DNA from: Dokdonia pacifica
GTDB taxonomy: Bacteria; Bacteroidota; Bacteroidia; Flavobacteriales; Flavobacteriaceae
Reading direction: 5' to 3'
Assembly: GCF_900188275.1 (NCBI RefSeq)
Contig: NZ_FZNY01000007.1
Coordinates: forward strand, 186,001-250,000
Length of the DNA stretch: 64,000 nucleotides
The notes under the pieces were generated by a model. That model ran no database searches, was not told the DNA's origin, and worked only from the letters and a program-made list of their open reading frames with translations. Shown piece by piece: positions 828 to 28,114 of the stretch (position 1 is its first letter; each line of letters starts with the position of its first letter). A program made the translations under genes and the position numbers.

Positions 828-3800
828 TATAATATTTCAAAAATAGCAAGGTTCCCTTGTTCTACAGTCTTACCAATCAGACCATAACTAATTTTTGTTT
901 TATTAGTTTTTGGATCTGTTCTACTCACTTTATTATTGGTCATCACCAATCGAATTCTATCCTTATTATTTAAAACTTTTACAAGCCTTGTTGCTTTATC
1001 AGTTAATGATTTTTCTGGTGTTTGATCTATTGTTGCTACTTTTAAACTAAAAACAATATACTTAATATCATTTAATTTAAGTACAGTTAAAAAATCATTT
1101 GGGTTTTGTAATTTATCACTTACCTGATCAAATAGATTTAGTTGGTTGTCTTCATAAACTCTAGTAGAATTTTCTTTTATATGGTAATTCATAAATGTTC
1201 CAACGCGATAGATTTTTGTTGAAACATCCTTATTAAGTACCTCAGCCGCTGGAGCAATAATAGAACGTGGATTATCAAAATTTTGATTGGTAATAAAATT
1301 ATTGGAATAGTGGCTTATAAATGGCTCGAAGAAAACGTTACTTATTTGGTTTAAGTCATTGTTGGCATTAGAGAAGTGTACCAATAAATTCAATGTTACA
1401 AAAACTGAAAATAATATCTGAATTGATCTTTTAGTAAAAGAATCTAGCCCTTTAGAAATAAAGAGCGAGATATTTTCATAATAATAGGCAATCAACAACG
1501 AAGATAAAGACCAAATAATTAAGGCATAATGTGGTATTCCATTTCCGAAAATCCACCACAAAAATCCATAGGTCATTATAAATGTCAAAATTAATTTAAC
1601 TGACTGATTAAACTTTCGCCAGTTATCTTTTGCAATCCAAGCAAAAAGTATACAAAACAATATAAGGACACATAACGTTACAGGAAATGTCATTTTTGAA
1701 AATACTCTAAATAATGGTTGGATCAACTCACTAACACTCGTTTGCAACTCCAGAAATGGCAAGTAAATATCTTTGCTTAAATCAAGAAAACTATTACTTG
1801 AATTTGGATAAAAATTACTTAGATAATCTGCAATACTTAATGTAGAACCTTTAGAGATCATTGCAGCTTTCCAACTCAGTAAAAGAACGATCCCAAAAAC
1901 AAAAAGACCTATACTATTTTTTAAATCAAATATTTTTTCTTTTTTAAGGGATAATACTAATAATGGGAGAAAAAGCAGAAATAAAAATCCAATATTCACC
2001 CCTCTTTTATTTGGAATATTTATCCCCATACTCACATCGTAGGGTAACGATAAATAATCATTTAATCCTTTTTCATACCCTAAATACCTAAGTATCTCTT
2101 CTCGTTTACCAGTATTAGTTCTATTTTTTTTAATCTTCTTTTTAGCACTCTTTTTTTGATTTTTCAACCTTTCAAATTGATCTATAAAATCCTCATTATC
2201 AAAACCCAAAACTTGTTCTTCACCAAGATATCTAGTGATCCCTTCTTTATGTTGTTCTGATATTTTGTTTGGAATATTATTTTCGGTTAAAAAAGAATAT
2301 TCATGATTTAGTGGTTCTTGAGCCGTTTTTCCGTACAATATGGTTTTTGTAGAAATATTGTCTGTTTCAATAGTATTTTTAATTATCCAAGGCATAAAGC
2401 TCAAGGTTATGACAACTAACATAATGCCTATATTTTGTGCTAACCGAAAACCGCGTACCCAATCAAATTTTTTGAAATAAAACAACAGCGAGCCAATACC
2501 TAAAAGACTGAAAATACCAACAATAGTAAAACGTTGTGTCGAAGAAATATCTAAATAACCAAAAGTATTTATTTTTAATAAAAATAGAATTGCTACCATA
2601 GTAAGCATCATCCCAAGATAGGCTTTGATTCCTCCCCATTGATATACAATCATTAATATGATTGCAATTATAATTAATACACCGAGATATTTAATCCCTA
2701 AAGCGAAGCCCATTAAAAAACCTAAAAGACTAAAAAACGTAATTGAAGTTTTGTTTTTTATTGAAAAATCATACTGAAAAGATTTAGCATAGTTTAAAAA
2801 GAAAATAACAATAGCGATACAAATAAAAAGAAAGCCAAGATCCACTTTTTCGTCAATAAAATTATGAAAACTAATAGCAGGAAGTGTGTAAAAAATTGCT
2901 ATTCCTATCAAAGCTCCAGTTATGCTTAAAAAAATACGTCCTAGATGAAACATAGCCCACATAGAAAGTACGCCCATGATATGTGAAAGAAAAATAGAAA
3001 ATGTCATGCTACCGAAAAGCAAAGGACCTAAACTTGTAAATAGTGACCAATTATAAGCTTGTCCTCCTTGCTCTAATGATTGAGAGTCAACTATGTTTTT
3101 TGTTATATTTTGATATAATACAGCTCCATCGTAACCTAGTGGGAAAATTTTCAACATTCCCACTAAATTAAAAGCTGTGAAAATTAAAATTATCGCAACA
3201 ACAGCAAACGTCCAAAAGGATACATCTTTAGTATTGATAGGGTTCCAAAAAACATATTTTATAAAGGGCCAGCAAACCTTTCGTTGCCATATTAATAACA
3301 CTACTAATATGGGAATGATTGTCCAAGTTTGTAAGAAACCTATAGCGGCCAATCCCATTAATAATAAAGTAAGTATTCCCATTCCTAAGGCAACTCCTAG
3401 TATGAATTTATGATGAACATTTAATATCCCTTTAAATTGTTTTAGAAATTTGTTTCCTGCCGCATAACAACATAAAAAGATTAAAAATGTACCAAGGTGA
3501 AGAGAAATACTATTAATCAAGAAGAATCCTTGATTTTTAAATGAAAAACCATCAGATATTGATGCCTCTTTAGAAAAACTGTTATAAACAATCATTAATG
3601 CTATGAGAAGAAAAGTATATATCATCCATCCCCTCCATTTAAAATGTCCCTTAGAAAATAAAAAGAAAATCCCTATCGAAATAAAAATCAGAATAAAAAT
3701 TGTTTTAATATAAGGGGGGTGGGTAGCTGCATAAATATAGGAAGAGTGGTGTATCAGATAATTAATAAAAACCCATAGCGTCCATAAGATTAATCCTAAC

Positions 3801-3835
3801 TTTAAAAAAAGTATTTTCTTTCTAGCGCTTAACAT
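827..3835 (-). CDS. Large polytopic membrane protein, putative GT-C-type glycosyltransferase
   Basis: A 1002-residue protein with many hydrophobic segments, a charged and very basic soluble loop (roughly residues 520-600, rich in KKSAKKKIKK) and a C-terminal soluble part after about residue 850. An early extracytoplasmic loop carries GYDGAVLYQ, an acidic residue placed as in GT-C enzymes that use polyprenyl-phosphate sugars (ArnT/PMT-like). That resemblance, and the coupled DPM-like GT2 downstream, are the only reasons for the call. It overlaps the upstream lipoprotein gene by 14 bases. No known family was recognised with confidence. It could instead be a polymer-processing or flippase-like membrane protein. 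Confidence 0.55.
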   Translation of the reverse strand: MLSARKKILFLKLGLILWTLWVFINYLIHHSSYIYAATHPPYIKTIFILIFISIGIFFLFSKGHFKWRGWMIYTFLLIALMIVYNSFSKEASISDGFSFKNQGFFLINSISLHLGTFLIFLCCYAAGNKFLKQFKGILNVHHKFILGVALGMGILTLLLMGLAAIGFLQTWTIIPILVVLLIWQRKVCWPFIKYVFWNPINTKDVSFWTFAVVAIILIFTAFNLVGMLKIFPLGYDGAVLYQNITKNIVDSQSLEQGGQAYNWSLFTSLGPLLFGSMTFSIFLSHIMGVLSMWAMFHLGRIFLSITGALIGIAIFYTLPAISFHNFIDEKVDLGFLFICIAIVIFFLNYAKSFQYDFSIKNKTSITFFSLLGFLMGFALGIKYLGVLIIIAIILMIVYQWGGIKAYLGMMLTMVAILFLLKINTFGYLDISSTQRFTIVGIFSLLGIGSLLFYFKKFDWVRGFRLAQNIGIMLVVITLSFMPWIIKNTIETDNISTKTILYGKTAQEPLNHEYSFLTENNIPNKISEQHKEGITRYLGEEQVLGFDNEDFIDQFERLKNQKKSAKKKIKKNRTNTGKREEILRYLGYEKGLNDYLSLPYDVSMGINIPNKRGVNIGFLFLLFLPLLVLSLKKEKIFDLKNSIGLFVFGIVLLLSWKAAMISKGSTLSIADYLSNFYPNSSNSFLDLSKDIYLPFLELQTSVSELIQPLFRVFSKMTFPVTLCVLILFCILFAWIAKDNWRKFNQSVKLILTFIMTYGFLWWIFGNGIPHYALIIWSLSSLLIAYYYENISLFISKGLDSFTKRSIQILFSVFVTLNLLVHFSNANNDLNQISNVFFEPFISHYSNNFITNQNFDNPRSIIAPAAEVLNKDVSTKIYRVGTFMNYHIKENSTRVYEDNQLNLFDQVSDKLQNPNDFLTVLKLNDIKYIVFSLKVATIDQTPEKSLTDKATRLVKVLNNKDRIRLVMTNNKVSRTDPKTNKTKISYGLIGKTVEQGNLAIFEIL

Positions 3836-4265
3836 TATTTTTTCTTTTAGATTTTCTTCTTGGGTATAATGATAATTGTTCTGGAGTAAGAACTTTTGAT
3901 TTTATATACTGTGCCATTCTTCTTTGAAACATACTACAACTATGCTGGTTTTTAAAAGTAGTTACTTTCATACCGTTTGCTCGTTCATTAATTTGATTAA
4001 TTTGTTCCTCAGTAAGTGGTGCCTTAGGATTATTACACTTCGCAATCAACATCTCTACAACAATGGCTTTGTTTGCATATTTTGGAGGAGCATTTGGATC
4101 GATAATTTCTCTTGATTTTTCTTGAAATTTGACTGATTTCACAGTATCAGTTTGAAAAGAGGTGTTGCTTTCATGAGCATCATTGGTCGAAGCTGAATTT
4201 TTATTACAGCTTATAATGAACAAGACTAAAGATACAATTAAACTAAAACGAAGTATTTTTTTCAT
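3822..4265 (-). CDS. Small lipoprotein of unknown function
   Basis: A 147-residue protein with a lipoprotein signal (MKKILRF, hydrophobic core, lipobox IISC with Cys near residue 20). The mature part starts with a Ser/Thr/Asn-rich linker. It continues with a helical, charged domain containing two cysteines (AKCNN and HSCSM) and ends in a basic tail (RRKSKRKNNVKR). No family was recognised. It overlaps the start of the large membrane protein, so the pair probably works together at the envelope. The cysteine spacing could allow a disulfide in the periplasm. Confidence 0.6.
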   Translation of the reverse strand: MKKILRFSLIVSLVLFIISCNKNSASTNDAHESNTSFQTDTVKSVKFQEKSREIIDPNAPPKYANKAIVVEMLIAKCNNPKAPLTEEQINQINERANGMKVTTFKNQHSCSMFQRRMAQYIKSKVLTPEQLSLYPRRKSKRKNNVKR

Positions 4266-4294: not shown

Positions 4295-5170
4295 TTATTC
4301 ATAATTATACCGATTTAGAAAGTCATATTGTCTAATATCTTTTAAAAAATTTTCAACTCTTTCTGTTGTCCAATAGGATAAGTCAAATCTACTATGATTT
4401 GTTTTTTTCCAAACAATTGATGCGCAATCATCAATATATTTTTGGGATACTTCTATTTCTAAAAATTGAAATATTCTTGTGAGCTCTTTTTTTGGAGCTG
4501 CAATAAAATCTTCTAAATGAACATCACAAATATCATTTGGAATTTGTGCTTTTAGCTTTGCATTTGTTTTTACTTTTGACAAGTAAAGTTTTTTTCTTTC
4601 CTGAAATAAAGTTTCTGTCAATGGGTATCCTATTTTTACTTGTCTAGAAACCATAGCGCTTACATTATCAAAGGGATTTCGTATAACGTGAATAATTTTT
4701 AGTTTAGCTTGACTGATCTTTTGTATATCATCAAGTAATTTCACATAATTCTCATCTCCCAATATAGCTGTGCTTTTCCCCCCTTTTTTATCTCCTATTC
4801 CAATTAGTTTGGTATACCTACCTTGCCATTGATTAGGGACTACATAGTTATAATTCGAGTTGGATCTCCCTAGTTTAGAGTGTTCTTGAGAGTTTCTTAG
4901 TATGTAATAGAATATTTGATGGCGAAAATATTTTTTTTTAAAAAAATGAAGAGCATTCATCTCATTTGAGATGATAAGATTAGGATGAGCATCCAGTAAT
5001 GAACCTATTAAACTATGCCCACTTCGAGGATAACCAATAAAAAAAATGTATTTGTCAATTTGAGAAAAACATTCTTTTAGTTTTTTACCCTTATAATATG
5101 ATACTACATAATAATAGAACCAAAAAAAACCAGAAACAAGCTTAAATCTTTTTGCTTTCTCACTTTCCAT
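4295..5170 (-). CDS. Sulfotransferase family protein
   Basis: A 291-residue PAPS-dependent sulfotransferase fold. The 5'-phosphosulfate loop is FFIGYPRSGHSLIGSLLDAHPN (about residues 43-64, P48-R49-S50-G51) and the 3'-phosphate block is HVIRNPFDNVSAMVSR (about 161-176). Enzymes of this family move sulfate from PAPS to hydroxyls or amines of glycans, lipids or small molecules. It follows the biosynthetic unit on the same strand after a 230-bp gap and precedes the lipoprotein and glycosyltransferase genes, so a surface glycan or the product of the adjacent unit are both possible acceptors. The acceptor cannot be told from sequence. Confidence 0.8.
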   Translation of the reverse strand: MESEKAKRFKLVSGFFWFYYYVVSYYKGKKLKECFSQIDKYIFFIGYPRSGHSLIGSLLDAHPNLIISNEMNALHFFKKKYFRHQIFYYILRNSQEHSKLGRSNSNYNYVVPNQWQGRYTKLIGIGDKKGGKSTAILGDENYVKLLDDIQKISQAKLKIIHVIRNPFDNVSAMVSRQVKIGYPLTETLFQERKKLYLSKVKTNAKLKAQIPNDICDVHLEDFIAAPKKELTRIFQFLEIEVSQKYIDDCASIVWKKTNHSRFDLSYWTTERVENFLKDIRQYDFLNRYNYE

Positions 5171-5400: not shown

Positions 5401-6135
5401 TTATACACTCTTAGAGTGTATAGATTTAGTAAGAAGATACATTGCTGGTAATTCAACAAAATCACCAGAACTCAATATTATATTTGTTTTTAGAGATGTT
5501 TCCTGTATAACAAGCGTCTGATATTCTTCTTTTGGAAACCAAGAAAGTAGTTCTTTTTTTGATACTCCTAATGGAGGGAAATTACTAGATAAAGTGTTCT
5601 CTAATGCCTGAGGTACTTCAGGATGATTTTGCACAAGCTCAGATATGTACTCCCTGATATTTGGTGCGGTCTCAATCATAAATATAGCTCCATGTTGGCC
5701 CAATAGAATTTTTAAATTTTGAACAAAGGATGTTCGATATTTATATGGAATTTGATGTAGTACTCCACGCATATAAACATTTGAATCACCTACTTTTTTA
5801 TGAATTTTTATGGAAGTCTCAGTATCTAGCATATCCATTACTTCAAATCTAAGTCCTTTATGATTTGTTAAATGTTTTGCAGAAAAGATAGCTTTTTTAG
5901 AAGCATCAATGCCTGTTACATTAGAGTAGTGTTTGCTCAAATAAAGAGTTTGTAGCCCTGTGCCACATCCTATATCAATAAGATGGAGAGAAGAATTAAA
6001 ATGTGGTTCAAATATGTGGAAATCTTTTTCAATAGCGCGTGAAGGCTTCACATCCCATAGTGCAGGTTCATTGCTTTCATTTAATTGCCTATATAATTGA
6101 TCCCAGTATAATCCACTCTTTAGTTGTTTTGACAT
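5401..6135 (-). CDS. Class I SAM-dependent methyltransferase
   Basis: A 244-residue Rossmann-fold methyltransferase. Motif I is LIDIGCGTGLQTLYL (D54-G56-G58), followed by the ribose-binding acidic residue in VTGIDASKKA (D77). The N-terminal YWDQLY/EPALWD segment resembles thiopurine/TehB-like small-molecule methyltransferases. It lies 48 bases downstream of the halogenase-like gene at the end of the minus-strand biosynthetic unit, so it probably tailors the same compound (O-, N- or C-methylation). The target atom is not deducible. A 230-bp AT-rich gap separates it from the sulfotransferase gene downstream. Confidence 0.75.
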   Translation of the reverse strand: MSKQLKSGLYWDQLYRQLNESNEPALWDVKPSRAIEKDFHIFEPHFNSSLHLIDIGCGTGLQTLYLSKHYSNVTGIDASKKAIFSAKHLTNHKGLRFEVMDMLDTETSIKIHKKVGDSNVYMRGVLHQIPYKYRTSFVQNLKILLGQHGAIFMIETAPNIREYISELVQNHPEVPQALENTLSSNFPPLGVSKKELLSWFPKEEYQTLVIQETSLKTNIILSSGDFVELPAMYLLTKSIHSKSV

Positions 6136-6183
6136 GCTTTTGATATTAGGATTTCATGATAATTAAGAAATCTCAAGGTAAAA

Positions 6184-7491
6184 CTATAATAGCGTTGGTG
6201 CTACTAAGTCTACTTCTTTCACTTCTCTACTTACACTATTACTTCCCAACAGTTTATTGAGTGTTTCGAATCTACCTGTCATATTAGATTGAGCCAGAAT
6301 AAGTAATAATTCTTGTTCACTAAAGGAGTGGATAATCTTTTGTCCCAATTTGAATAAATGATCAGGGATTTGCTTCGAAGGATATGCCAATATTTTGAAT
6401 ATTTTTAGCCGCTTATCATATTCTTGTGCAAATGTATTTTTATAGAATTCCTTCCTATGTGGTTTTCTCAAACTGTTACTGACTGCCCATGCAGCTAAAT
6501 AGCCACCATACATGGATACAGGTACGCCTTCAGAACTGATAGGATCTACAAAAGCTGCGGCATCTCCAGCAAGAAAACAATTTTCATAGACTAAGTCCGT
6601 TGACTTATATGCATAGTCCCGAATTGATTTTACAGAACCAGATATAAGACTACTCTCTAGCAACATATTTCCGATAAGAGGAATTTCTTTACTAAACGAA
6701 TCAAACCTTTCCTCCAATGTTGTTCCTCCACCTTTAAAACTTGATTGATGTTTCTTAGATAAAATGATACCAACACTCACTTTCTCCCTCAACATTATTT
6801 TCCAACTCCATCCCCAATTTCCTATATCAGATACTACAGTCATTCCTCCGTGATCATATCGTTCTTTAAAGGTTCTTATGTTTAAATTTTTATCATAGAA
6901 ATTGCTTTTGTCAAAATATCCCCATACCGCTTGAAAACCAAAATCCTTATCAAATTCTCGTGATCGCTTTTGCTTAGAAAATAGCGCTCTTTGTCCAGAT
7001 GCATCAATCACATATTTGGCTCTTATTACATGTGATTCATCGGTGATGGTGTTTTGATAGCTAACGATTGCCACATTAGGATTAGAGATATCTACATGTT
7101 CCACTTTCATCTGCTCAAATACAGATCCACCTTTTTCCTTAACCTTATTAAGCAATATCTGATCAAAACGATCTCTTTCTACATGTAGTGCATTTCTGTT
7201 TATACCAAAAGATTTGAATGAGAGTGTTTTTGCCTGACCTTCCCATGCTACTATTCCTCCTGTTTTTTGTAAAAAACCTTCATTTTCGATATCCTCTGAT
7301 GCATCTATAAGATCAGTGAATTTCCAAAAAGTAGGTATGATGCTTTCCCCTACCGTATTTCTTGGGAATTTTTCCTTTTCTAATACTACTACTTCAAATC
7401 CTTTTTTTGCCAATATTCCCGAAGCAATAGACCCTGCAGGACCTCCTCCTATTACCACTACATCACATTTATCTGGGATATTACTATTCAT
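6184..7491 (-). CDS. FAD-dependent oxidoreductase, probable flavin-dependent halogenase
   Basis: A 435-residue flavoprotein of the halogenase/geranylgeranyl-reductase superfamily. It shows an N-terminal dinucleotide fold GGGPAG (residues 15-20), the FPRNTVGES motif (42-50) shared by PltA/CmlS-type halogenases, and the second FAD motif FLAGDAAAFVDP (306-317). The halogenase WxWxIP signature is nearly kept: W228-S-W230-K-I232 followed by Met instead of Pro. In pyrrole pathways (PltA) such enzymes halogenate the pyrrolyl carrier-protein thioester. The neighbouring prolyl-activation genes make the same role attractive here. An oxygenase or reductase role cannot be excluded, partly because of the Pro-to-Met change. 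It starts 16 bases after the dehydrogenase stop. Confidence 0.7.
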   Translation of the reverse strand: MNSNIPDKCDVVVIGGGPAGSIASGILAKKGFEVVVLEKEKFPRNTVGESIIPTFWKFTDLIDASEDIENEGFLQKTGGIVAWEGQAKTLSFKSFGINRNALHVERDRFDQILLNKVKEKGGSVFEQMKVEHVDISNPNVAIVSYQNTITDESHVIRAKYVIDASGQRALFSKQKRSREFDKDFGFQAVWGYFDKSNFYDKNLNIRTFKERYDHGGMTVVSDIGNWGWSWKIMLREKVSVGIILSKKHQSSFKGGGTTLEERFDSFSKEIPLIGNMLLESSLISGSVKSIRDYAYKSTDLVYENCFLAGDAAAFVDPISSEGVPVSMYGGYLAAWAVSNSLRKPHRKEFYKNTFAQEYDKRLKIFKILAYPSKQIPDHLFKLGQKIIHSFSEQELLLILAQSNMTGRFETLNKLLGSNSVSREVKEVDLVAPTLL

Positions 7492-7507
7492 ATTGTTGGT
7501 TTTGAAA

Positions 7508-8644
7508 TTATAGACTTCTCAAAATTAAGTTTTTTTGAATTTCAGAGGTACCCGAATACATGGTAGAAGACATGGCATCTCTCACAGACCTTGCAATATC
7601 TGTATTTTCCACATAACCACTTGCACCATATATCTGCAATATATTTGATGATGCATTTTTATATAACTCACTAACATACAATTTTGCCATTGATGCCGCG
7701 GTATTCGCTTTTACATTATTTTCTATAAGAAAAGCAGCTTTAGCTATTAGTAGCTTTGCCGCTTCTATTCTTGTTTTTATATCGGCTAGTTTATGACCTA
7801 TGGATTGGTGATTTATAATGCTTTGATTTGCAATCTTTCTTTTTTTTACGAATACAACCACTTCATCCAAAAGCCGTTGCAAGGTACCAATATGAATTGC
7901 ACTCAATCCAACACGTTCCCACATCATTGATTTTGTGAATTGTACTGTTCCTCCACCTTGTTCGCCCATTAATGTGGAGTTTGGCACTTCTGAGCTCTTG
8001 AAAGTGACACCACCCATCAATGCAGTACGAAGACCCATTTTTTCAATTTTTTCGCTTACTTCAAAGTATTTTTTTTCTAACACAAAACCACTTACACCTC
8101 CCAGTGCACCTTTTTCCTCATTTGTCATTGCATAAACGATAGTTAAGTCTGCTAAGGGTGCATTTGTGCAATAATATTTTTCTCCATTAAGGATATATCC
8201 GTTTTTTGTTTTACTTGCAATGGTGCTCATCTTAAAAACGTCAGAACCACTTTTTCGTTCTGTGATCGCATTTGCAGCTATCCAAGAACCATCACATAAC
8301 ATAGGTAAATATTCTCCTTTCTGCATTTCAGAACCATATTTCCAGATCGGAATAGTACACGCGAGTAGGTGAGCACCTATAGAGAAACTCAAACCATTAT
8401 CTGTACATCCATACCCCAAAGCCTCTAATGCTATGATCATATTTTCAAAATTCAATCCTCTTCCTCCATACTCTTTTGGTATGCAAAGACCTTGTAATTT
8501 TAGATCACCACATTTTTTCCAAAGAGCTCTTTCAAATCTCTCATTTCTATCTCTGTCTTCTACTCCTTCATTGAGTTCAGATTGAGAAAAATCTATGATC
8601 TCATTTCTCAAAACCTTTTGCTGTTTATTCAATATATAGGTCAT
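7508..8644 (-). CDS. Acyl-CoA dehydrogenase family flavoprotein, likely prolyl-carrier-protein oxidase
   Basis: A 378-residue acyl-CoA dehydrogenase fold with FAD-contact segments AITERKSGSDVF (126-137) and the C-terminal MYSGTSEIQKN (362-372). The usual medium-chain catalytic Glu (YEG) is Ser364 here. Glu243 in WERVGL instead aligns with the base of isovaleryl-CoA dehydrogenase. PltE, RedW, PigA and CloN3, which oxidise prolyl-S-carrier to pyrrolyl-2-carboxyl-S-carrier, are known to be related to isovaleryl-CoA dehydrogenase. The start ATG overlaps the stop of the adenylation gene by four bases, so enzyme and activator are coupled. Carrier-bound proline is the inferred substrate. Confidence 0.75.
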   Translation of the reverse strand: MTYILNKQQKVLRNEIIDFSQSELNEGVEDRDRNERFERALWKKCGDLKLQGLCIPKEYGGRGLNFENMIIALEALGYGCTDNGLSFSIGAHLLACTIPIWKYGSEMQKGEYLPMLCDGSWIAANAITERKSGSDVFKMSTIASKTKNGYILNGEKYYCTNAPLADLTIVYAMTNEEKGALGGVSGFVLEKKYFEVSEKIEKMGLRTALMGGVTFKSSEVPNSTLMGEQGGGTVQFTKSMMWERVGLSAIHIGTLQRLLDEVVVFVKKRKIANQSIINHQSIGHKLADIKTRIEAAKLLIAKAAFLIENNVKANTAASMAKLYVSELYKNASSNILQIYGASGYVENTDIARSVRDAMSSTMYSGTSEIQKNLILRSL

Positions 8645-10152
8645 AGTTTTAATAAGCTCTGATAATCTACTTTATGTGTACTCGTTCTTGGAATTGAAGA
8701 TAAACAAACAAATTTATCTGGAAGCATATACTTTGGAATAAATTTGAAGCAATGTTCATTCAGTTCTAGTATCTGCAATGCTTTATTATATGTTTCTTTA
8801 AGCTGATAAAAAGCACTTATTTCAATTTTCCCTTCATGCTCTTTTGCTATGACTGCCGCTTCAAATATGTTGGCATGCTTTTGAAGTGCAGATTCTATTT
8901 CTGCCAATTCTATTCTGTAGCCATTCTTTTTCACCATTCTATCATTTCGACCAATAAACACATAGTTGCCCGATTCATCTAACCTTACCCAATCACCTGT
9001 TTTATACCATATTTCACCTTCATCATCTTTTATGAAAACATCTGCATTTTTAGCACTATTGTTCCAATATCCTGGTGATACAGATGAACCCTTGATGAAT
9101 AGTTCGCCTTCTTTTATTAATGAGGCAGTATTTTTCTCATCATACAATTTCGATTTTGCATAAGGACAAGGTAGACCTATAGGAAATGTAGATTGTCTTC
9201 CGTCGATCACATTCGGGATCTTATAATATGTTACAACATTCGTTTCAGTAGGACCGTACAAATTATAAAAATCTCCAGTTGACCACTTTTCTTTTATCTC
9301 TGTAAAAGACTCTATATTAAATACTTCTCCTGCAAATAACACATGCTTTATTGAAGTATGATCAAATCGTTCAATTTTACCAAATCTTAGCATCAATTTT
9401 AAAAGACTAGGTGTTGCGTATAGAACAGAAATTTTTCTTTGTGCTATCAATGAAGATATCATCCTTGGGTTTCGAGAAGTAGCTGCATCTATTAGGATTA
9501 GATGCGCACCATTCATCATGCTTACATAGAGATCAAATGTCGATAGATCAAAGTGATAAGGAGCAATCGATGAAAAAACATCTTCATGACTTACATCTAG
9601 TAATTCATTTGACCAATTTACAAAGCTTATTATATTTTTATGAGTGATCATTACTCCTTTTGGTATCCCTGTAGATCCTGAAGTATATAGAATAATAGCC
9701 AGATCATTAGGTTGTTCAATAAGATTTTTATCTGATGATCCGTTTATGACTAAGACCAGCCCATCCAAAGGTACATCTATTTGGATAGCATATGTTTTTA
9801 GATAAGGTTTTAAAACATCAACTAAAGCTTCTTCAATAATTATCGCTTTTGGTTGAGCATTATCAATTATAAAAGACATACGTTCTACAGGAGATTCTGC
9901 ATCTATTGGCACATATGCGGCACCAGATTTTAATATGCTAAATATTGAAATGGTAGCATTAATAGTTTTTTGAGATATGATACCAACTCTAACACCATCT
10001 CCTATTCCGTTAGAATTAAGAACATCTTTTACAATAGAAGTTTTGTGATGTAACTCATCGTAAGTAATGAGATTATTAGAAGCGTCAGATAACGCAGTAT
10101 TATTAGGATTTATATTGAAACCGTTATGCAATATGTCTTGTATCCTATTCAT
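8641..10152 (-). CDS. Stand-alone adenylation enzyme, predicted L-prolyl-AMP ligase
   Basis: A 503-residue AMP-forming ligase with all core adenylation motifs: ILYTSGSTGIPKG (154-166), YGPTE (299-303), KTGDW (384-388), GRNDRMVKKNGYRIEL (401-416) and the catalytic Lys494. No condensation or carrier domain is attached. Aligning by hand to GrsA gives pocket residues D202, L203, F206, Y245, L272, A274, L298, V306, V307, K494. From memory, free-standing prolyl ligases (PltF/CloN4 type) read DLFYLALVCK, so nine of ten agree. It abuts the radical SAM gene and overlaps the dehydrogenase gene, and should load the carrier protein at 12217. A DltA-like alanine ligase is less likely from this code. Confidence 0.82.
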   Translation of the reverse strand: MNRIQDILHNGFNINPNNTALSDASNNLITYDELHHKTSIVKDVLNSNGIGDGVRVGIISQKTINATISIFSILKSGAAYVPIDAESPVERMSFIIDNAQPKAIIIEEALVDVLKPYLKTYAIQIDVPLDGLVLVINGSSDKNLIEQPNDLAIILYTSGSTGIPKGVMITHKNIISFVNWSNELLDVSHEDVFSSIAPYHFDLSTFDLYVSMMNGAHLILIDAATSRNPRMISSLIAQRKISVLYATPSLLKLMLRFGKIERFDHTSIKHVLFAGEVFNIESFTEIKEKWSTGDFYNLYGPTETNVVTYYKIPNVIDGRQSTFPIGLPCPYAKSKLYDEKNTASLIKEGELFIKGSSVSPGYWNNSAKNADVFIKDDEGEIWYKTGDWVRLDESGNYVFIGRNDRMVKKNGYRIELAEIESALQKHANIFEAAVIAKEHEGKIEISAFYQLKETYNKALQILELNEHCFKFIPKYMLPDKFVCLSSIPRTSTHKVDYQSLLKL

Positions 10153-12204
10153 TCAGGTAATTTTAGAAACTAAGGGATGTACTACACAATGTTTACTTTT
10201 ACTATTTAGAAGCCAATCAATATTTTCCTTGGATGGTGGTATTCCCCAAGGATTTTTGACAACATATGAAATAGTATAATGTTTTGATTCTAAGTAGCTA
10301 TTTGACATTAATTTTTTAGTTTCTTTAGCTATGATTTTTGGCAAATCTACCCAAGGAGTAATATTTCCCGATTTTGTATTTTTCTTACCTTCAAGAAGAT
10401 CTGTGGTGTTCAAAACTGTGTTTTTTAGATCACTACAAATTTCATGTACATTGTATTGAAATTCATAAGAATCTTTTGGCTTCCAACTAGGTTTTGGAGC
10501 AATCAATAAGTTGTATTCAATAATTTCGTGTAAGAGAAGTTTCTCTTCTTGGGATCGACAACAATCATATTTTTCACATAATGCAGTATAAAAATCATGA
10601 ATGAATGCTTTTAGGATAGGAGTATTATTTTCTTTTAACCCTGTTTTTTGGTTGGTTTTAAACCAAATAGAATGACTAATTGTCATCATATACTGGTTAT
10701 CATCTACACCAAATTTATCAATGAAGTATTTAAATATCTTTTTTAGTTCAAAAAGGAAATCTTGATAATTCTCATTAGATGAAAGTAATTCATCGTTCTG
10801 AAGGACATCATTCATGAAGAGGAATACTTCCTTATTAGTAATATCATACTTGGATAAAAAGTGATTAGTCATCTGACCTAAATTATGATTATGAAGAAAG
10901 TGAACGATACCCATAAAGTATCTCCCACTTTTCATATCCTCTACCTTCAATAGAGGATTGCTCATTACAGTACAATCATAATAATCAGATTTTTCAGCAT
11001 CAGGTACTGGTTCTGTAACCACATCAGCCGTAGTCAAAAGACCTAATTGTTCTTTTTTGTCATAAAATTCCGTCCCTGGTATTAAGACTAATTGATGTAT
11101 CTTTAATGATGGTACTAGGCTACTTGTGACAATGTAAATTCCATTTAAGAAGTCTTCTAATGATTCCCCAGGTAGACCAATAATGATATCCGTATAGGTG
11201 TCGATATTTCTCTTGTCTGCACTTCTTAAAAGATTCATAAATTTATAGGGAGACATGGAGTATCGTTTAGAAAATTCTTCAGCCTTTGTAGTTACAGTTT
11301 GAAGTGCAATAGTGGTTGCACAAGAGATACCTCCTTTTTGGAAAATTGAAGCTATTTCTAGGATTCGATCACTACTGTTTTTAGCCCAATTTACACCTAC
11401 AGATTTAAATGGCAGTCCATTTTGTTTATTGACATCTACAATGATCTCTGCAATTTCTGCATCACTCGGAAAAATCCCAAAATTGGCATCTGCCAACCAA
11501 AATGCTCTGACTCTATTTTTAGCAAAAAATTCCATTTCTTCTCGTACTCTTTCAAGTGACATTCGATACACTTTGGAATTTCCATTTCCCCAATAACAAA
11601 AGGAACACCTATAGGGACAACCTCTATTTGTTTCATAAAATACTGGTGAGGGCCTAGGCTTAATAATACCCGAGATATAGGGAGACGGGACGTCATCTAA
11701 CAATTCAATTCTATGACCAATATTGGGTCGTACTATTTGTCCGTTTATATCTTTAAATACGCAATTTCTTGAATTAATAAATAACTCCTTATCTTGAACT
11801 AGTGCAAGACATATATCTGCAAATGCAGGCTCACCTTCACCCTCTACTAGGCAAGATACAATAGGATACTTTTCAAGTATTTCTTCACCTTGTTTGCCTG
11901 AACAGTTTGGTCCACCTATGAGTATTTTTGGCAATTTTCCCTCCACTGAAAGTATGTTGAGGGTATCACATATTTTCTTATGATTCCATGAATAATCTGA
12001 AATGGCAATTAAGTCAGCATCTACCTCTAATATGTCATTTACTATTTTTGAAACGTCCGTTTTTCTTGGATATTCAAGAAAGAGAAATTCCACATTTTCT
12101 TTTACTTCTTGCATTTTGTTAGCGTACGCCACTAGCAAACCCAACTGGTAAGGTGGTGAAGAGTAGTATGACTTGAAGTCTAGTAAAATGATCTTTTTTC
12201 TCAC
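10153..12204 (-). CDS. Cobalamin-binding-type radical SAM enzyme
   Basis: A 683-residue protein. The N-terminal 150 residues form a B12-binding-like Rossmann domain (ADLIAISDYSWN, KILIGGPNCSG, VEGEGEPAF). The radical SAM core has the cluster motif C196-PYR-C200-SF-C203 and extends to about residue 400. The remaining 280 residues are a helical C-terminal domain of unknown role. This layout is typical of class B radical SAM methyltransferases. CloN6/CouN6 of that class C-methylate the pyrrole in clorobiocin/coumermycin, a direct parallel to the gene context here. A ring-forming or rearranging reaction is also possible. The start is GTG (12204), needed to keep the first strand of the B12 domain. 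It lies 12 bases after the carrier-protein stop. Confidence 0.8.
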   Translation of the reverse strand: MRKKIILLDFKSYYSSPPYQLGLLVAYANKMQEVKENVEFLFLEYPRKTDVSKIVNDILEVDADLIAISDYSWNHKKICDTLNILSVEGKLPKILIGGPNCSGKQGEEILEKYPIVSCLVEGEGEPAFADICLALVQDKELFINSRNCVFKDINGQIVRPNIGHRIELLDDVPSPYISGIIKPRPSPVFYETNRGCPYRCSFCYWGNGNSKVYRMSLERVREEMEFFAKNRVRAFWLADANFGIFPSDAEIAEIIVDVNKQNGLPFKSVGVNWAKNSSDRILEIASIFQKGGISCATTIALQTVTTKAEEFSKRYSMSPYKFMNLLRSADKRNIDTYTDIIIGLPGESLEDFLNGIYIVTSSLVPSLKIHQLVLIPGTEFYDKKEQLGLLTTADVVTEPVPDAEKSDYYDCTVMSNPLLKVEDMKSGRYFMGIVHFLHNHNLGQMTNHFLSKYDITNKEVFLFMNDVLQNDELLSSNENYQDFLFELKKIFKYFIDKFGVDDNQYMMTISHSIWFKTNQKTGLKENNTPILKAFIHDFYTALCEKYDCCRSQEEKLLLHEIIEYNLLIAPKPSWKPKDSYEFQYNVHEICSDLKNTVLNTTDLLEGKKNTKSGNITPWVDLPKIIAKETKKLMSNSYLESKHYTISYVVKNPWGIPPSKENIDWLLNSKSKHCVVHPLVSKIT

Positions 12205-12216
12205 TAAAGTTGATTA

Positions 12217-12465
12217 CTATGTTTGTTTTTGTATAATAAAATCCGATAATGTAGAGATCGAATTCAAATTTTCTTTATCTACTTCGTGTGCTTCAAATTC
12301 CACATTGAAATTTTCTTCAATGAAGTCTACTATTTCTAATGCTGAAATAGAATCAATGATACCACTAGTTAATAATTCGGTGTCAGTGGTCAATGAATTG
12401 GGATCACCACTAAAAAAATTACTTACAATGTATTCTTTTAATTTGCTTTCAATTTCAGTTTTCAT
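12217..12465 (-). CDS. Acyl/peptidyl carrier protein
   Basis: An 82-residue stand-alone carrier protein. The phosphopantetheine site is GIIDSISALEI with Ser39 in the D-S-I context. The remainder is a typical acidic four-helix bundle (VDFIEENFNVEFEAHEVDKENLNSI). It overlaps the end of the membrane acyltransferase gene by 11 bases and sits before the radical SAM and adenylation genes. It is therefore the probable thioester carrier for the amino acid activated by the ligase, comparable to PltL/CloN5 or to DltC. Length and the single domain match both. No phosphopantetheinyl transferase is visible in the window. Confidence 0.88.
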   Translation of the reverse strand: MKTEIESKLKEYIVSNFFSGDPNSLTTDTELLTSGIIDSISALEIVDFIEENFNVEFEAHEVDKENLNSISTLSDFIIQKQT

Positions 12466-15025
12466 TCAAATTTATTTTTTTATTGATTTTCAAATAGAGT
12501 GCATCAGCTATTAATTCATGACCCTTTACATTAGGGTGGTTGTCCCATTTTGCTATTCTTAAGAGGCTCTTATTATAGTTTGAATAAGCAGTGCTTATGT
12601 CATAGTACTTAATCTTATTCTTCTTAGACAACTGTTCTATCTCATTTAGATTTTGCGTTTTATTGTCTAAACTAGGAAATAAAATTAATGAAAAGTTTAT
12701 ACCCTCATCTATACACTTTTTATTGAGATGATTTAAACACCAATCTATTAATATATTTCCTTTCTTAATTTCTTCCTCTTCTTTCATATTAGGGTCAAAA
12801 CTTAAATTCTCCTTCTCTATAAAATCTACTAAATCACGTAGCCAGGGACTATTTTTAAATATGCTTTCTAGATTTTCTTTGCTTTCAGATTGTTCTTCAA
12901 TCCATCTCAATGTTTTTTGAAAATGAAAAACTTCTTTTTCGTGCATACTTAATAACACATGGGTAGGTTCAAAATCTTTTACTTGTTTATCAAATTTTTC
13001 AATATTCTTAATTATTGAGGAACCCGATATAGAAAAATTTAAAACCTCATAATTAGGATCACTAGCGTTTCTATTATTATTAAGTTTATCTTCAACCAAA
13101 TTTTCAAATACTTCATTGTTGTCTACTCCAGTACCCATTTCTAAAGACCCGCCTAGAATAGCAATTCGCACTGTATTTTCTGGCCTTTTTTTGGTATATT
13201 CTTTGTCTCTCATGCCCCAACTATTAGTTGTCAAATACCCATCTTTAAATATGATGTCAATATTTGGCTTTAAGCTAACAAACAGGTCTTTCTTAATCAT
13301 AGCTCCTGTTTTATTCAGTCGAATCCATCGTGCTGGTCTCTTTGATTCATTTTGCCAAGATTGAGAATTAAATTGATCACCAGTTAATATCTCTTCATAA
13401 TATCCTTTAGATTGAAACTCAGTGTCAGTTTTATTTAACCGATGCGAAATATAGCTTTGCAATGTTCTTTGATTCTTTCTGGATAACAAATTGCTTGCAA
13501 ATGAACTAGTAATGAATAATATTCCTGTCAAAAAAACAAACTTGTAGATATCTTGACTTCTATAAAAAAAACGAAAGAGGGTTCTAAATTTTTCATTTTC
13601 GTACATCCAGACACCTAAAGCAAGTATAAATAATGCTAAAAGAAAAATGAGAAGCACATATCCTATTTCAACCATCGATGAACTTTTCATTTTTATTAAG
13701 AGGTTCATCCAATCAGAAAAAGAAGGGCTGTTATAAAGACTATAAATAATAGCAATGACTAGATTTGTAAAGATAATTTGAAGCGCTCTAGTAAATGCAA
13801 ATTTCCAGGTTTTATTATTTAAGTGAGATGACTTTGATTTTCCTCTATTTTTAGTTTGATAAATTACAGCAACTAATACAAGGATACATAGTATGGACCA
13901 AAACACTATTTCAGGTCCTCTTAAAGAGAATTTCCCCAAAACCCAAAACCACTGATATGAGTGTAAAAACCAATTAAAAAAAAATGTAAGTATTGTACCA
14001 ATTACGAGTGCTATAATTGTACTTTTCTTACGAAACTTAAAATAGATAGGATAGTAAAATATTTTCACCATAAAATCTTTCCAATAAATATTTACCCTTC
14101 TCCAATAATCATCAAAACCATGTGCTAAAAACATATAGTTAAAAATATCAGGTAAGTTAAAGCCAAATAATCGTAGTATCCCTATTGCAATATTTAATAG
14201 TCCATTTAACCTAATTAGAAATAAATATGAAACAATTATGTAATAAAAAAACATAAGAACTCCATCTACTTCATTTATTAGAGGTAAGAGATAATAAACC
14301 ACACGATAGAGTAATAGCTGTAATAAACCAAGTATGATAAGGTTAACTCCTCTTTCATATATTTCTGTATCTCGTTGATTATAGTATGTGCTATTAAATA
14401 ATTTGAAATCAATAATTGGGAAGATCGGAAAACTAAAATTTGGCAAAGTAAAAAAATATGAAAGTGATTGCCAGATCGAAAGCTTTTCCTTTTGATACTT
14501 TAGTTCATGTAAGTATAGAATAATTCTAAACATAAACATGACCCCAAGCAAACTCACAAAATTTGAAGTTAAAGCAAGACCTCCTACAAAACCCGTCTTT
14601 TTAATAGCATACTGACAATAAGCTAAACCAATTCCAAAAAGGACGACGAGTAATTTTCTTATTGTTATTGAAAAAGGCAAATGACAAACACCTATCAATG
14701 CTAATGCTATTCCTATAAATATAAAAGCTTGAACAAGGGGGAAAAAATAAAAAATAGGGACTAACGAGACTATAAAAAAAAAGAAAAGTCTATATGAGAT
14801 TGGTAAAAAAGCGTTTAAAACAAATGCCACACATACTATTGTCATAATAGCGGGCAAATTTAAATCATCCTCTATATCAAATGCATAAATCACCCAAGTG
14901 GATAAAAAGATCAAACTAAGATTCTTGAGAAGCGAAATTATTTTTCCCTTCTCAAAAGAATTTTCATTCATTTTTATGATTTGTTCATTTAAATTATACT
15001 TGAATAAATTTATAATTTGATTCAT
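12455..15025 (-). CDS. MBOAT acyltransferase fused to SGNH-like domain
   Basis: An 856-residue protein. Residues 30-510 hold many membrane segments and MBOAT features: HGFDDYWRRVNIYWKDFM (302-319), and the invariant-type His355 in NWFLHSYQWFWVLG. Residues 600-856 form an extracytoplasmic SGNH-like domain with GGSLEMGTGV (Ser627) and WDNHPNVKGH (Asp828, His830). MBOATs such as DltB and AlgI pass acyl groups across the membrane, often with an SGNH partner (DltD, AlgX/J-like). Here both are in one chain and are coupled to a carrier protein. This suggests export of the carrier-bound acyl group onto an envelope acceptor. A second in-frame ATG lies 18 codons in (14971), so the start is not certain. 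Confidence 0.8.
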   Translation of the reverse strand: MNQIINLFKYNLNEQIIKMNENSFEKGKIISLLKNLSLIFLSTWVIYAFDIEDDLNLPAIMTIVCVAFVLNAFLPISYRLFFFFIVSLVPIFYFFPLVQAFIFIGIALALIGVCHLPFSITIRKLLVVLFGIGLAYCQYAIKKTGFVGGLALTSNFVSLLGVMFMFRIILYLHELKYQKEKLSIWQSLSYFFTLPNFSFPIFPIIDFKLFNSTYYNQRDTEIYERGVNLIILGLLQLLLYRVVYYLLPLINEVDGVLMFFYYIIVSYLFLIRLNGLLNIAIGILRLFGFNLPDIFNYMFLAHGFDDYWRRVNIYWKDFMVKIFYYPIYFKFRKKSTIIALVIGTILTFFFNWFLHSYQWFWVLGKFSLRGPEIVFWSILCILVLVAVIYQTKNRGKSKSSHLNNKTWKFAFTRALQIIFTNLVIAIIYSLYNSPSFSDWMNLLIKMKSSSMVEIGYVLLIFLLALFILALGVWMYENEKFRTLFRFFYRSQDIYKFVFLTGILFITSSFASNLLSRKNQRTLQSYISHRLNKTDTEFQSKGYYEEILTGDQFNSQSWQNESKRPARWIRLNKTGAMIKKDLFVSLKPNIDIIFKDGYLTTNSWGMRDKEYTKKRPENTVRIAILGGSLEMGTGVDNNEVFENLVEDKLNNNRNASDPNYEVLNFSISGSSIIKNIEKFDKQVKDFEPTHVLLSMHEKEVFHFQKTLRWIEEQSESKENLESIFKNSPWLRDLVDFIEKENLSFDPNMKEEEEIKKGNILIDWCLNHLNKKCIDEGINFSLILFPSLDNKTQNLNEIEQLSKKNKIKYYDISTAYSNYNKSLLRIAKWDNHPNVKGHELIADALYLKINKKINLNEN

Positions 15026-15186: not shown

Positions 15187-15867
15187 ATGATTTGGTTAGC
15201 ATCTTTTCCTAGGTCAGGAAATACTTTTTTTAGAAATATTCTTTTTGATGTATATGGCATAGCATCTAGTGAGTTTCATATGGAAACAGACAAAAAAGTG
15301 CTCGAGAATTTTTCTTCATTCCCTATAGTTAAAACGCATTTATTACCTCATCAACTTCCAAAAGACCTTCAATCTATGAAATCTGTATATATAATTAGAG
15401 ATGGTCGAGATGCTTTAGTATCTATTGCTCATCACAGAAAAGACATCATCGCTCCTGGCTCTAATTATTACAAAAATCTGACGGAAGCAATCCTAGCAAG
15501 AGGAGGTAGTTTTTTTGGAGGTTGGTCTATAAATGTAGAGAAATGGGTAGACAAAGCAGATCTTGTAATTCGCTATGAAGATTTAATTAATGACCCCATT
15601 GGTCAAGTAGAACGTCTCAGAGAAATAATGGAACTTCCAGCGCCTAATTTAAAAAAACTACCAACGTTTCAATCCTTAAAAAAAGGTACGCCACAATACG
15701 GAAGTGGAGGAAAAAAGATAAAGCATACAGAACAAAAAGTAGAACGCGCTAATAAATTTTTTAGAAGAGGAATCGTTGGATCTTATAAAGATGAAATGCC
15801 TAAAATATTTCAGCTATTGTTTTGGTTAAAAAACAAAAAGCAAATGAAAGCAAATAATTATTATTGA
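15187..15867 (+). CDS. Sulfotransferase domain protein
   Basis: A 226-residue compact sulfotransferase. The PAPS 5'-phosphosulfate loop is at the very N-terminus (WLASFPRSGNTFFRN, P8-R9-S10-G11-N12-T13), and the 3'-phosphate site is YIIRDGRDALVSIAHH (68-83, with R71 and S79). This resembles Sulfotransfer_1 proteins seen in polysaccharide loci. It has its own promoter, diverges from the biosynthetic operon and is followed after 14 bases by a GT4 gene, so a glycan acceptor is likely. It is only distantly similar to the sulfotransferase at 4295-5170. Confidence 0.8.
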   Translation: MIWLASFPRSGNTFFRNILFDVYGIASSEFHMETDKKVLENFSSFPIVKTHLLPHQLPKDLQSMKSVYIIRDGRDALVSIAHHRKDIIAPGSNYYKNLTEAILARGGSFFGGWSINVEKWVDKADLVIRYEDLINDPIGQVERLREIMELPAPNLKKLPTFQSLKKGTPQYGSGGKKIKHTEQKVERANKFFRRGIVGSYKDEMPKIFQLLFWLKNKKQMKANNYY

Positions 15868-15881
15868 TTCACAATTCGTTT

Positions 15882-16994
15882 ATGAAAATTGCCATACTTG
15901 CCGACACTTTAGATAATCAAAATGCAGGTATTCATGTATATACTAAATCCTTGATTAAGGAGTTGTTAAAAAGAAATGATGAACATGAATACATTCTAGT
16001 TCGTCAAAAAAAAGACAACAAATTACAACATATAAAGCAGATTGCGATTCCAAATATCAACCTACCTATTGGCTTTGCATCGTTTAGATTGTTTTTTATA
16101 ATTCCTTATATACTAAGAAAGCATAAAGTAGATGCTGTTTTTGAACCTGCACATTTTGGACCTTTCAATTTACCAAAAAAAATAAAACGTATTACATTTA
16201 TACACGATCTTACACCTATTATACTTCCTGAATATCATCGTTGGCATAGCCAAGTACTGCAGCGGATATTTTTGAAAAGAATATTAAAAAACACACATTT
16301 AGTTTTTACAAACTCTAAAAATACTAGCAAAGACCTAGAGCAGTATTATCCCTTCACCAAAGGTAAAAGCAAAGTGCTTTTACTAGGAAAAGATAGTAGA
16401 TTTCAACCCAGTCAAAACAAGGATTTAATTCATAGTTTTGGTATAGAATTACCCTACTTTTTATCTGTTGGAACAATAGAACCCCGAAAAAACTTAGTTC
16501 GTTTACTTAAAGCCTACACCATTTTTATGAACGAGACAAGCATACCATACAACCTTGTATTTGCAGGTGGACTGGGATGGAAGACAGAAAACTTCAAAAA
16601 AGAACTAGCAATACATCCCTATAGAGAGCATATAAAAATATTAGGGTATATAAAAGAAGAAGAGTTACCAATAGTATATAGCCATGCGAGCGCTTTAATT
16701 TACCCTTCTTTATATGAAGGTTTTGGCCTTCCTATATTAGAAGCCTTAGCTTGTGGTACAGATGTAATTTGTTCAAATACTTCTAGCTTACCAGAAGTAG
16801 CTGGAGCAGTAGCACACTACTGCAATCCAGAATCTGTTGATGAAATAAAAGAGCAAATGATTAAAATCTCTCAATTTTCATTAACTGAACAGAAAATAAA
16901 TAGTCAAAAAAACATAGAACAAGCACAGCTATTTTCGTGGGAAAAACATGCTGATTCTTTTATAAATACTATTGAGAGATTGATTACAGATTAG
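15882..16994 (+). CDS. GT4 family glycosyltransferase
   Basis: A 370-residue GT-B glycosyltransferase. The N-terminal half begins MKIAILADTLDNQNAGIHVYTKSL, with the glycine-containing acceptor loop of the family. The C-terminal half has YFLSVGTIEPRKNLVRLL and the donor-binding YPSLYEGFGLPILEALACG (E-x7-E motif). I placed the start at the ATG at 15882, 14 bases after the sulfotransferase stop. An in-frame TTG at 15864 would add six residues and overlap that gene. It probably adds a hexose or similar sugar to a lipid-linked or polysaccharide acceptor at the cytoplasmic membrane. The donor is unknown. Confidence 0.85.
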   Translation: MKIAILADTLDNQNAGIHVYTKSLIKELLKRNDEHEYILVRQKKDNKLQHIKQIAIPNINLPIGFASFRLFFIIPYILRKHKVDAVFEPAHFGPFNLPKKIKRITFIHDLTPIILPEYHRWHSQVLQRIFLKRILKNTHLVFTNSKNTSKDLEQYYPFTKGKSKVLLLGKDSRFQPSQNKDLIHSFGIELPYFLSVGTIEPRKNLVRLLKAYTIFMNETSIPYNLVFAGGLGWKTENFKKELAIHPYREHIKILGYIKEEELPIVYSHASALIYPSLYEGFGLPILEALACGTDVICSNTSSLPEVAGAVAHYCNPESVDEIKEQMIKISQFSLTEQKINSQKNIEQAQLFSWEKHADSFINTIERLITD

Positions 16995-19524: not shown

Positions 19525-19529
19525 ATTCG

Positions 19530-19603
19530 TGACCTCGAAGGGATTCGAACCCCCAACCCTCAGAGCCGAAATCTGATATTCTATCCAGTTGAACTACGAG
19601 GCC
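19530..19603 (-). tRNA. tRNA-Arg (anticodon TCG)
   Basis: Folded by hand on the minus strand. The acceptor arm GGCCTCG pairs with CGAGGTC, with one G-T pair. The anticodon stem TCAGA/TCTGA encloses loop TTTCGGC, giving anticodon TCG, which reads CGA (Arg). The T arm is GGGGG-TTCGAAT-CCCTT and the discriminator is A. The CCA end is not encoded. Confidence 0.93.
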
Positions 19604-22206: not shown

Positions 22207-22289
22207 ATTTTTGATTTTAGCCCCTTTATTACTTTTCTGTTTCCGCTTCCGTACTTCGACCTTGCTCAGTATAAACTTCTGCTCTACTT

Positions 22290-22305
22290 CGTTTCGCGAA
22301 AGCGT
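22290..22305. repeat. Palindromic repeat, one-base-deleted copy
   Basis: CGTTTCGCGAAAGCG followed by TATA. The left arm lacks one C compared with the full palindrome. It lies between ftsA and ftsZ. Confidence 0.8.
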
Positions 22306-22354
22306 ATATCTCTTTATTTCTTATTAATTAACCTTCATTCTTTTGTAGCAAACG

Positions 22355-28097: not shown

Positions 28098-28114
28098 TTT
28101 CTCTTTTATCTAGA

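Follow-up and report, generated by a model that had tools for sequence, protein, structure and literature searches.

Do seven adjacent genes of Dokdonia pacifica (Flavobacteriaceae) form a system that decorates the cell envelope with a group made from proline? The genes lie in a 64,000-nucleotide stretch, here called the window (assembly GCF_900188275.1, contig NZ_FZNY01000007.1, positions 186,001 to 250,000 of the forward strand), for which an initial annotation had proposed a union of two logics: the building of a pyrrole on a carrier protein and the export of acyl groups as in the Dlt system. All seven open reading frames (ORFs) were confirmed on the minus strand at window positions 5401 to 15025. 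In reading order they encode a predicted fused MBOAT-SGNH acyltransferase, a carrier protein, a B12-binding radical S-adenosylmethionine (SAM) enzyme, an amino-acid ligase, a dehydrogenase, a flavin adenine dinucleotide (FAD) enzyme of the halogenase family, and a SAM methyltransferase. Neighboring genes overlap by 11 bp (MBOAT/carrier) and 4 bp (ligase/dehydrogenase) or are separated by 12 bp (carrier/radical SAM), 0 bp (radical SAM/ligase), 16 bp (dehydrogenase/flavoenzyme), and 48 bp (flavoenzyme/methyltransferase), which is spacing of the single-operon type; the earlier description had grouped the first six as one unit. We hold, with a probability of roughly 0.7, that the genes encode a carrier-fed envelope acylation system that would work like Dlt with a proline-derived acyl group. 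Proline appears to be turned into a ring on the carrier and moved across the inner membrane, with sugar chains of the cell surface as the most likely destination, and the same appears to hold in several phyla.

The substrate is suggested by the ligase (positions 8641 to 10152), an amino-acid adenylation-domain (A-domain) enzyme that matched TIGR01733 above its cut-off. Aligned to PltF (6o6e), its specificity code read DLFYLALVVK, compared with DLLYLALVCK for PltF; the last residue of the PltF code, K, lies outside the alignment. The PltF-type code was kept in 37 of 38 ligases from the related loci described below, two of the 38 being cut short before the last code position, and variation fell mainly at position 3 (L, F, or H) and position 5 (L, F, N, or H). 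Nine further ligases from related genomes also carried it. The window ligase is thus predicted from its code to activate L-proline, as first proposed. The sole exception, from a Roseivirga locus (L105), read ALFYCAQVCK, in which the Asp that binds the alpha-amino group is replaced by Ala. Because the genome of this locus (G680), with its altered ligase, gave no dehydrogenase match at 1e-70, ligase code and dehydrogenase may change together, a suggestion that comes from this single case; the MBOAT-SGNH protein, carrier, and altered ligase of L105 perhaps make up a related system that handles a different acyl group. The acceptor of the activated amino acid would be the stand-alone carrier (12217 to 12465), a PP-binding family protein whose phosphopantetheine serine, Ser39 in IDSIS, was Ser in all 48 aligned carriers, that of the window included.

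What would happen to proline on the carrier is indicated by the dehydrogenase (7508 to 8644), which has an acyl-coenzyme A (CoA)-dehydrogenase fold. Its best NCBIfam models were PigA (363.8 of 500 bits) and RedW (321.9 of 650 bits), both below cut-off. When 20 of the 31 dehydrogenases longer than 340 residues were scanned, the window enzyme among them, these two models gave the best E-values for all 20; an acryloyl-CoA reductase model also matched all 20, more weakly. The best PDB matches, above ordinary acyl-CoA dehydrogenases, were 4irn, 6cxt, and 5zw0/6af6. Of these, 6CXT is Bmp3, described as pyrrole-forming, and a Glu is required for the dehydrogenation (PMC10849742). In the window enzyme the corresponding candidate is Glu243 in SMMWE, which aligns with the position at which 5zw0 and 6af6 differ, and the Glu of this WE motif was present in 31 of 31 aligned relatives. 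The window enzyme is nearest to prolyl-carrier oxidases, a name that 4irn and 5zw0/6af6 bear, as prolyl-carrier dehydrogenases, in the PDB match list. The earlier claim that proline is oxidized to a pyrrole is supported by oxidase family and catalytic Glu as regards oxidation; full aromaticity is likely, with a partly oxidized prolyl group as the alternative. A nonaromatic exported group would arise either if the enzyme stopped at a two-electron, pyrroline-type product or if the FAD enzyme further altered the ring. The single best PDB match, 4irn, which we take to be AnaB, fits such an outcome, since AnaB chemistry is a two-electron oxidation. We consider it unlikely, given that 6cxt and 5zw0 come next, that PigA and RedW head the NCBIfam matches, and that the operon's flavoenzyme shares the family of PltA.

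The export step would fall to the 856-residue product of positions 12455 to 15025. It had no Pfam MBOAT match and only subthreshold GDSL matches, and the Pfam MBOAT model likewise found nothing in ten of its relatives. We identified the protein instead by an AlphaFold model, Foldseek, and invariant residues. The model, built from 80 related sequences (80 of the 89 MBOAT rows, each longer than 700 residues), had a mean predicted local distance difference test score (pLDDT) of 89.6 and a predicted template modeling score of 0.87. Against the PDB, Foldseek ranked the DltB chain 8jem_A first, 6bug (presumably also DltB) second, and 8jem_B third; HHAT came next, and PORCN, LPCAT3, and DGAT1 lower. 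The C-terminal domain matched SGNH esterases such as 3hp4 and TesA. Among 90 aligned sequences, His355 (the candidate catalytic residue of the MBOAT domain), Ser627, and His830 were each present in all 90 and Asp828 in 89, the last three being the candidate SGNH residues. As modeled, the protein is a DltB-like MBOAT, with the MBOAT fold and its invariant His, fused to an SGNH domain, so that both predicted folds of the first description were recovered, not as separate parts but in one polypeptide.

How might an acyl group pass from one domain to the other? Between them lies a GYY motif (GYYE, residues 541 to 544; positions 13394 to 13405, minus strand, as counted from the ORF start), in which Y542 was conserved in 89 and Y543 in 90 of the 90 aligned sequences. 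Loop 541 to 549 is, besides the N terminus, the sole stretch listed with pLDDT below 50. PatA and DltX shuttle acyl groups on the Tyr of an FxYxxF motif (PMC12148441), and by analogy we infer that a GYY tyrosine is a candidate acyl shuttle with a comparable role. Ten related loci (L057, L064, L048, L049, L052, L054, L060, L073, L085, and L107) carry two to four MBOAT-SGNH genes each, perhaps one for each acceptor position.

Using an alignment of three proteins as the query, we scanned one genome for each of 84,980 GTDB species and obtained 246 relatives of the fused protein. The 80 best, nearest to the window protein, define 76 loci; with two from other searches, 78 loci were analyzed (carriers accepted to an E-value of 1e-6, ligases and dehydrogenases to 1e-60), two of which (L071 and L090) have no MBOAT ORF of their own. 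A carrier was found in 46, a ligase in 38, and a dehydrogenase in 31. Ligase and dehydrogenase occurred together in 30 loci, always with a carrier, and these belong to nine phyla: Pseudomonadota, Acidobacteriota, Gemmatimonadota, Planctomycetota, Hydrogenedentota, Verrucomicrobiota, Bacteroidota, Rhodothermota, and Calditrichota. The four genes stood on one strand in the order MBOAT-carrier-ligase-dehydrogenase in 24 of the 29 loci where all four ORFs were called, and two of the five exceptions match this order apart from over-long ORF starts. (An all-against-all clustering of neighbors, swamped by antisense ORFs, served as the basis for the core counts alone.) In a tree of 89 of the 90 sequences, the window protein grouped with that of L047 (support 89, not starred), within a clade that is mainly Bacteroidota. 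Presence of the ligase was clustered on the tree and required 16 changes, some of them due to contig ends and to ligases located in other parts of the genome. No relative turned up in a scan of viral contigs; a plasmid search returned two records, one of which, from Microvirga, covers the greater part of the query. Nowhere else did we see the full seven-gene set, the radical SAM enzyme being matched in none of the 78 loci at 1e-30. Thus, the combination called unusual at first is so for the seven genes, but its four-gene core is widespread. Four loci of three phyla (L132:5679-6908, L136:6943-8163, L113:4300-5604, and L084:8068-9510) have a Na+/H+ exchanger gene (Pfam Na_H_Exchanger) next to the gene for the carrier or the MBOAT.

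Co-occurrence was also apparent at the level of whole genomes. Among 395 Bacteroidota genomes, taken in one draw, four had the fused protein (at 1e-60) and the identical four a PltF-type ligase (at 1e-95); two of these genomes are of one family. Were protein and ligase independent, this overlap would have a probability of 1e-9. In one of the four (G326, a single contig), the two genes are separated by 2.9 Mb of contig, or by 1.6 Mb should the contig be circular. Pathways for antibiotics, among them that of PltF, are known without an MBOAT, and relatives of the system without one would have spoken for a secreted metabolite; none was found in the 395 genomes at the thresholds used. Given the recurrence among the 78 loci, the order shared by 24 of 29, and the co-occurrence in 395 genomes, we rejected a chance neighborhood as unlikely. 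We further checked sets of 12, 25, and 9 genomes. All 12 genomes of the first set have the fused protein, and eight of them had been read as ligase-less loci; ligase and dehydrogenase were present in 10 and adjacent in each of these, the other two being G680, with the altered ligase only, and G685. Among 25 genomes with a ligase-less MBOAT locus, some of which coincide with the genome of a ligase-bearing locus (e.g., L049 with L071), a ligase was found at 1e-95 in 19 and a dehydrogenase at 1e-78 in 16. Two of the nine genomes (those of L088 and L095) already had a dehydrogenase at the locus; the other seven had a locus with ligase and without dehydrogenase, and five of them encode one elsewhere. 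In G042, of the same family as the window genome, the pyrrole genes lie 12 kb further along the same contig.

The ring might instead be built into a natural product that is secreted free, with the MBOAT-SGNH protein acylating that small molecule or a glycoside; clorobiocin-type antibiotics offer the likeness. The halogenase-family and B12 radical SAM enzymes within the operon would suit such a pathway, and natural products with thiotemplated pyrroles are known (PMC10849742). We nevertheless judge a free product quite unlikely. The scanned operon and flank genes contain no nonribosomal peptide synthetase, polyketide synthase, or thioesterase (other ORFs were viewed by eye only), the core recurs in 29 loci, and 2 of the 94 neighbors scanned match the AMP-binding family. 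The same genome holds a second, separate carrier-ligase-dehydrogenase set (L002, G000:C19:603493-606457) whose code, DPQFLSIQCK, is unlike that of PltF and which adjoins further A-domain ORFs.

Three genes of the operon lie outside the core and may tailor the ring. The FAD enzyme (6184 to 7491) belongs to the Trp_halogenase-type family, that of PltA, and keeps GxGxxG and the catalytic Lys (Lys76 in FLQKTGG, counted from the motif start at 72). Its WxWxIP position reads WSWKIM, because of which we make no claim of halogenation for D. pacifica; family and Lys are those of a halogenase, but the halogenation first thought possible is doubtful here. The proline of WxWxIP is also lost in L047, L097, and L109, and the motif is intact in six Bacteroidota loci. 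Ligase, dehydrogenase, and a FAD enzyme are grouped in six Bacteroidota loci (L132, in G042; L135; L136; L137; L138; and L140), of which only L140 has no called carrier. In L140 a 479-residue protein adjoining the ligase (1099-2538) looks by eye like an AlgI-type MBOAT. A halogenase-type enzyme was present at 1e-40 in 3 of the 78 loci. The radical SAM enzyme (10153 to 12204, GTG start) matches the KedN5 family model below its cut-off (246.8 of 700 bits), contains CxxxCxxC, and has TokK and CysS as nearest PDB neighbors; at 1e-20, four other genomes of the 395 had matches, with 30 to 31% identity over about 370 residues. The methyltransferase, assigned by family scan (5401 to 6135), may act on ring or sugar, because its relatives are found both beside the FAD enzyme (L135 and L138) and apart from it (L132 and L136).

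Which molecule would receive the group? Two sulfotransferases, an ATP-binding cassette (ABC) ATPase, an ABC-2 permease (below the Pfam cut-off), and a glycosyltransferase flank the window on its left. Within it, still on the minus strand, lie a family 2 glycosyltransferase (135 to 827), a 1002-residue polytopic protein (827 to 3835) that has no Pfam match and looks GT-C-like by eye, a small lipoprotein-like protein (3822 to 4265), and a sulfotransferase (Sulfotransfer_3; 4295 to 5170). On the plus strand follow a second sulfotransferase (Sulfotransfer_1; 15187 to 15867) and a family 4 glycosyltransferase (15864 to 16994, TTG start as listed). The sulfotransferases and glycosyltransferases were assigned by family scan; the family 2 enzyme and the polytopic protein have relatives in related loci, where small proteins are placed similarly to the lipoprotein-like one, with a weak alignment. 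Relatives of the window-type glycosyltransferases occurred near all six Bacteroidota loci named above, sulfotransferases near four (L132, L135, L136, and L138), and an ABC exporter near two (L132 and L138). Glycosyltransferase-like genes also adjoin the MBOAT gene of G326 (L133), and single cases elsewhere include a CysNC-like gene in L098, a heparinase II/III-like gene in L067, and a sulfotransferase with a glycosyltransferase in L109. Because glycosyltransferases, sulfotransferases, and an ABC exporter surround the module, a sulfated surface polysaccharide is the likeliest acceptor in D. pacifica. The proposed MBOAT-SGNH export is supported by the DltB-like and SGNH folds and, most of all, by the co-occurrence of the parts.

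Several observations count against this account. Outside Bacteroidota the glycan signal was weak: the 94 neighbors scanned, from 17 loci of which 16 are non-Bacteroidota, included at least eight glycosyltransferases and three sulfotransferases, together with three polysaccharide deacetylases, two sugar transferases, two pyruvyl transferases, and two AMP-binding proteins. These are raw counts without a background rate, taken from the 25 commonest of 155 families, and the scan covered 94 of 168 neighbors and 17 of 22 loci, leaving aside GC-rich loci with doubtful calls, FAD-enzyme ORFs, and some short ORFs. By eye, several modules lie among genes that do not look glycan related, and the ligase-dehydrogenase pairs of L134, L139, and L141 had no glycan neighbors when compared with the window's genes only. 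The acceptor could accordingly be peptidoglycan, a lipid, or a protein, and the window module is near a cell-division/murein (dcw-type) cluster, recognized by eye from ORF starts at 20221 to 35925. That we rate such an acceptor somewhat unlikely is owed to the genes around the window module and to the six related loci, with glycosyltransferases near six, sulfotransferases near four, and an exporter near two. As for the shuttle, the window protein has no FxYxxF motif; 25 of the 90 aligned sequences do, at 302 to 345 in 10 of the 12 listed. The best NCBIfam model for the carrier was ACP_for_OlsHI, a family of ornithine-lipid synthesis, below its cut-off. Ornithine-lipid synthesis was rejected: carriers of eight genomes passed that cut-off in no case (top score, 116.8 of 130 bits), and the enzymes of the OlsHI pathway are of other kinds, one GH3-like and one an alpha/beta-hydrolase (PMC12493201). 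Automatic names for such carriers may mislead, given these subthreshold matches.

The remaining contrary points concern genome content. The 395-genome table scored the best two or three candidates in each genome. G685, with the fused protein, had neither ligase nor dehydrogenase; of the 25 genomes, 6 were without a ligase match at 1e-95 and 9 without a dehydrogenase match at 1e-78, and 2 of the 7 genomes had no dehydrogenase match genome-wide at 1e-70. Some of these misses may come from incomplete assemblies, most being metagenome-assembled genomes by title. The fused-protein genomes with no ligase match would suit a protein that moves an ordinary acyl-CoA group, such as acetyl, to polysaccharide while the pyrrole genes serve another purpose; acetyl-CoA is the donor for PatA/PatB (PMC12148441). 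We think this very unlikely in view of the exact co-occurrence in 395 genomes, unlinked pair included, and of the place of the carrier gene, which in 24 of 29 loci comes directly after that of the MBOAT.

Taken together, a PltF-type code, an oxidase, a carrier, a DltB-like MBOAT, and an SGNH domain, with the parts co-occurring, make the mechanism of the initial annotation the best supported, with a core that is wider than first thought. From gene content, predicted fold, conserved residues, and co-occurrence, the chemistry may be pictured as follows. The ligase would adenylate L-proline and load it onto the carrier's phosphopantetheine, as its PltF-type code suggests, and the dehydrogenase, by its family and its Glu, would turn prolyl-S-carrier into, most likely, pyrrolyl-S-carrier. 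In the window genome, the FAD enzyme, the B12 radical SAM enzyme, and perhaps the methyltransferase could then tailor the carrier-bound ring. On the cytoplasmic side, the MBOAT domain would accept the acyl group that the carrier bears and hand it, probably by way of a GYY tyrosine, to the SGNH serine outside. The SGNH domain would finally form an ester with a hydroxyl group on a polymer of the envelope, the sulfated polysaccharide of the flanking locus being the likeliest one here. A broader statement, that fused MBOAT-SGNH proteins with an internal tyrosine shuttle form a widespread, undescribed class that esterifies (often sulfated) surface polysaccharides of many phyla with a carrier-delivered, proline-derived pyrrole, whose ring is tailored here by the flavoenzyme and a B12 radical SAM methylase, seems to us evenly balanced between true and false.

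How does the system compare with those already described? Like Dlt (DltA-DltC-DltB-DltX-DltD), it has an amino-acid ligase, a separate carrier, an MBOAT of the DltB fold, an SGNH domain, and presumably a carrier-fed acyl group. Whereas Dlt D-alanylates teichoic acids in the walls of Gram-positive cells, the window has a proline-type code and predicted prolyl oxidation. It would work like Dlt but is not Dlt itself, because the ligase and carrier score far under the cut-offs of the DltA and DltC models (294.1 against 559.85 bits for TIGR01734 and 17.5 against 52.35 bits for TIGR01688), the SGNH domain is fused to the MBOAT in place of a separate DltD, and the operon, with gaps of at most 48 bp, has no intergenic room for DltX (a search that was confined to the operon). 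The thiotemplated pyrrole pathways (PltF/L/E, AnaB/C/D, Bmp, and ChmI/J/H) share a prolyl ligase, a carrier, and an oxidase of the acyl-CoA-dehydrogenase fold with its Glu. PltF/L/E, AnaB/C/D, and Bmp feed assembly lines or coupling enzymes. In the Chm pathway, ChmF hydrolyzes off the product, which is reloaded on a nonribosomal peptide synthetase (PMC10849742), whereas the neighbor in the window is a predicted membrane acyltransferase. PatA/PatB and AlgI-type O-acetylation likewise runs from MBOAT to SGNH to glycan ester, with a Tyr shuttle in PatA, but uses two proteins, acetyl-CoA, and FxYxxF in place of one fusion, a presumed carrier donor, and GYY (PMC12148441). AT3-SGNH fusions such as OatA and OafA/B also join a membrane acyltransferase and an outer SGNH domain in one polypeptide, but their fold is AT3, not MBOAT, and OatA uses acetyl-CoA where a carrier is presumed here (PMC9558356, PMC12148441). 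AlgI/AlgX and PatA/PatB are described as MBOAT systems with separate SGNH partners, and the available excerpts of PMC9558356 contain no mention of a fused MBOAT-SGNH protein. By titles and the starts of abstracts, we found no description joining an MBOAT, prolyl oxidation, and a polysaccharide, which is weak evidence, as subscription journals lay mostly outside the search. Elsewhere in the window, a tRNA-Arg(tcg) at 19529 to 19603 is the sole tRNA and the sole Rfam match at the gathering threshold.

According to PMC12148441, Dlt uses a carrier and other MBOAT/SGNH pathways do without one, evidently because they use acyl-CoA. The system described here, if our reading is true, would be a second carrier-fed pathway, present in several phyla and charged with an oxidized amino acid, and the carrier logic would be more general than Dlt. 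The fusion of both domains in one protein offers a simple system for the question of how acyl groups are shuttled, and the four-gene core is short enough for tests in a laboratory host. The known surface chemistry of bacteria would then gain a group that is aromatic and possibly tailored.

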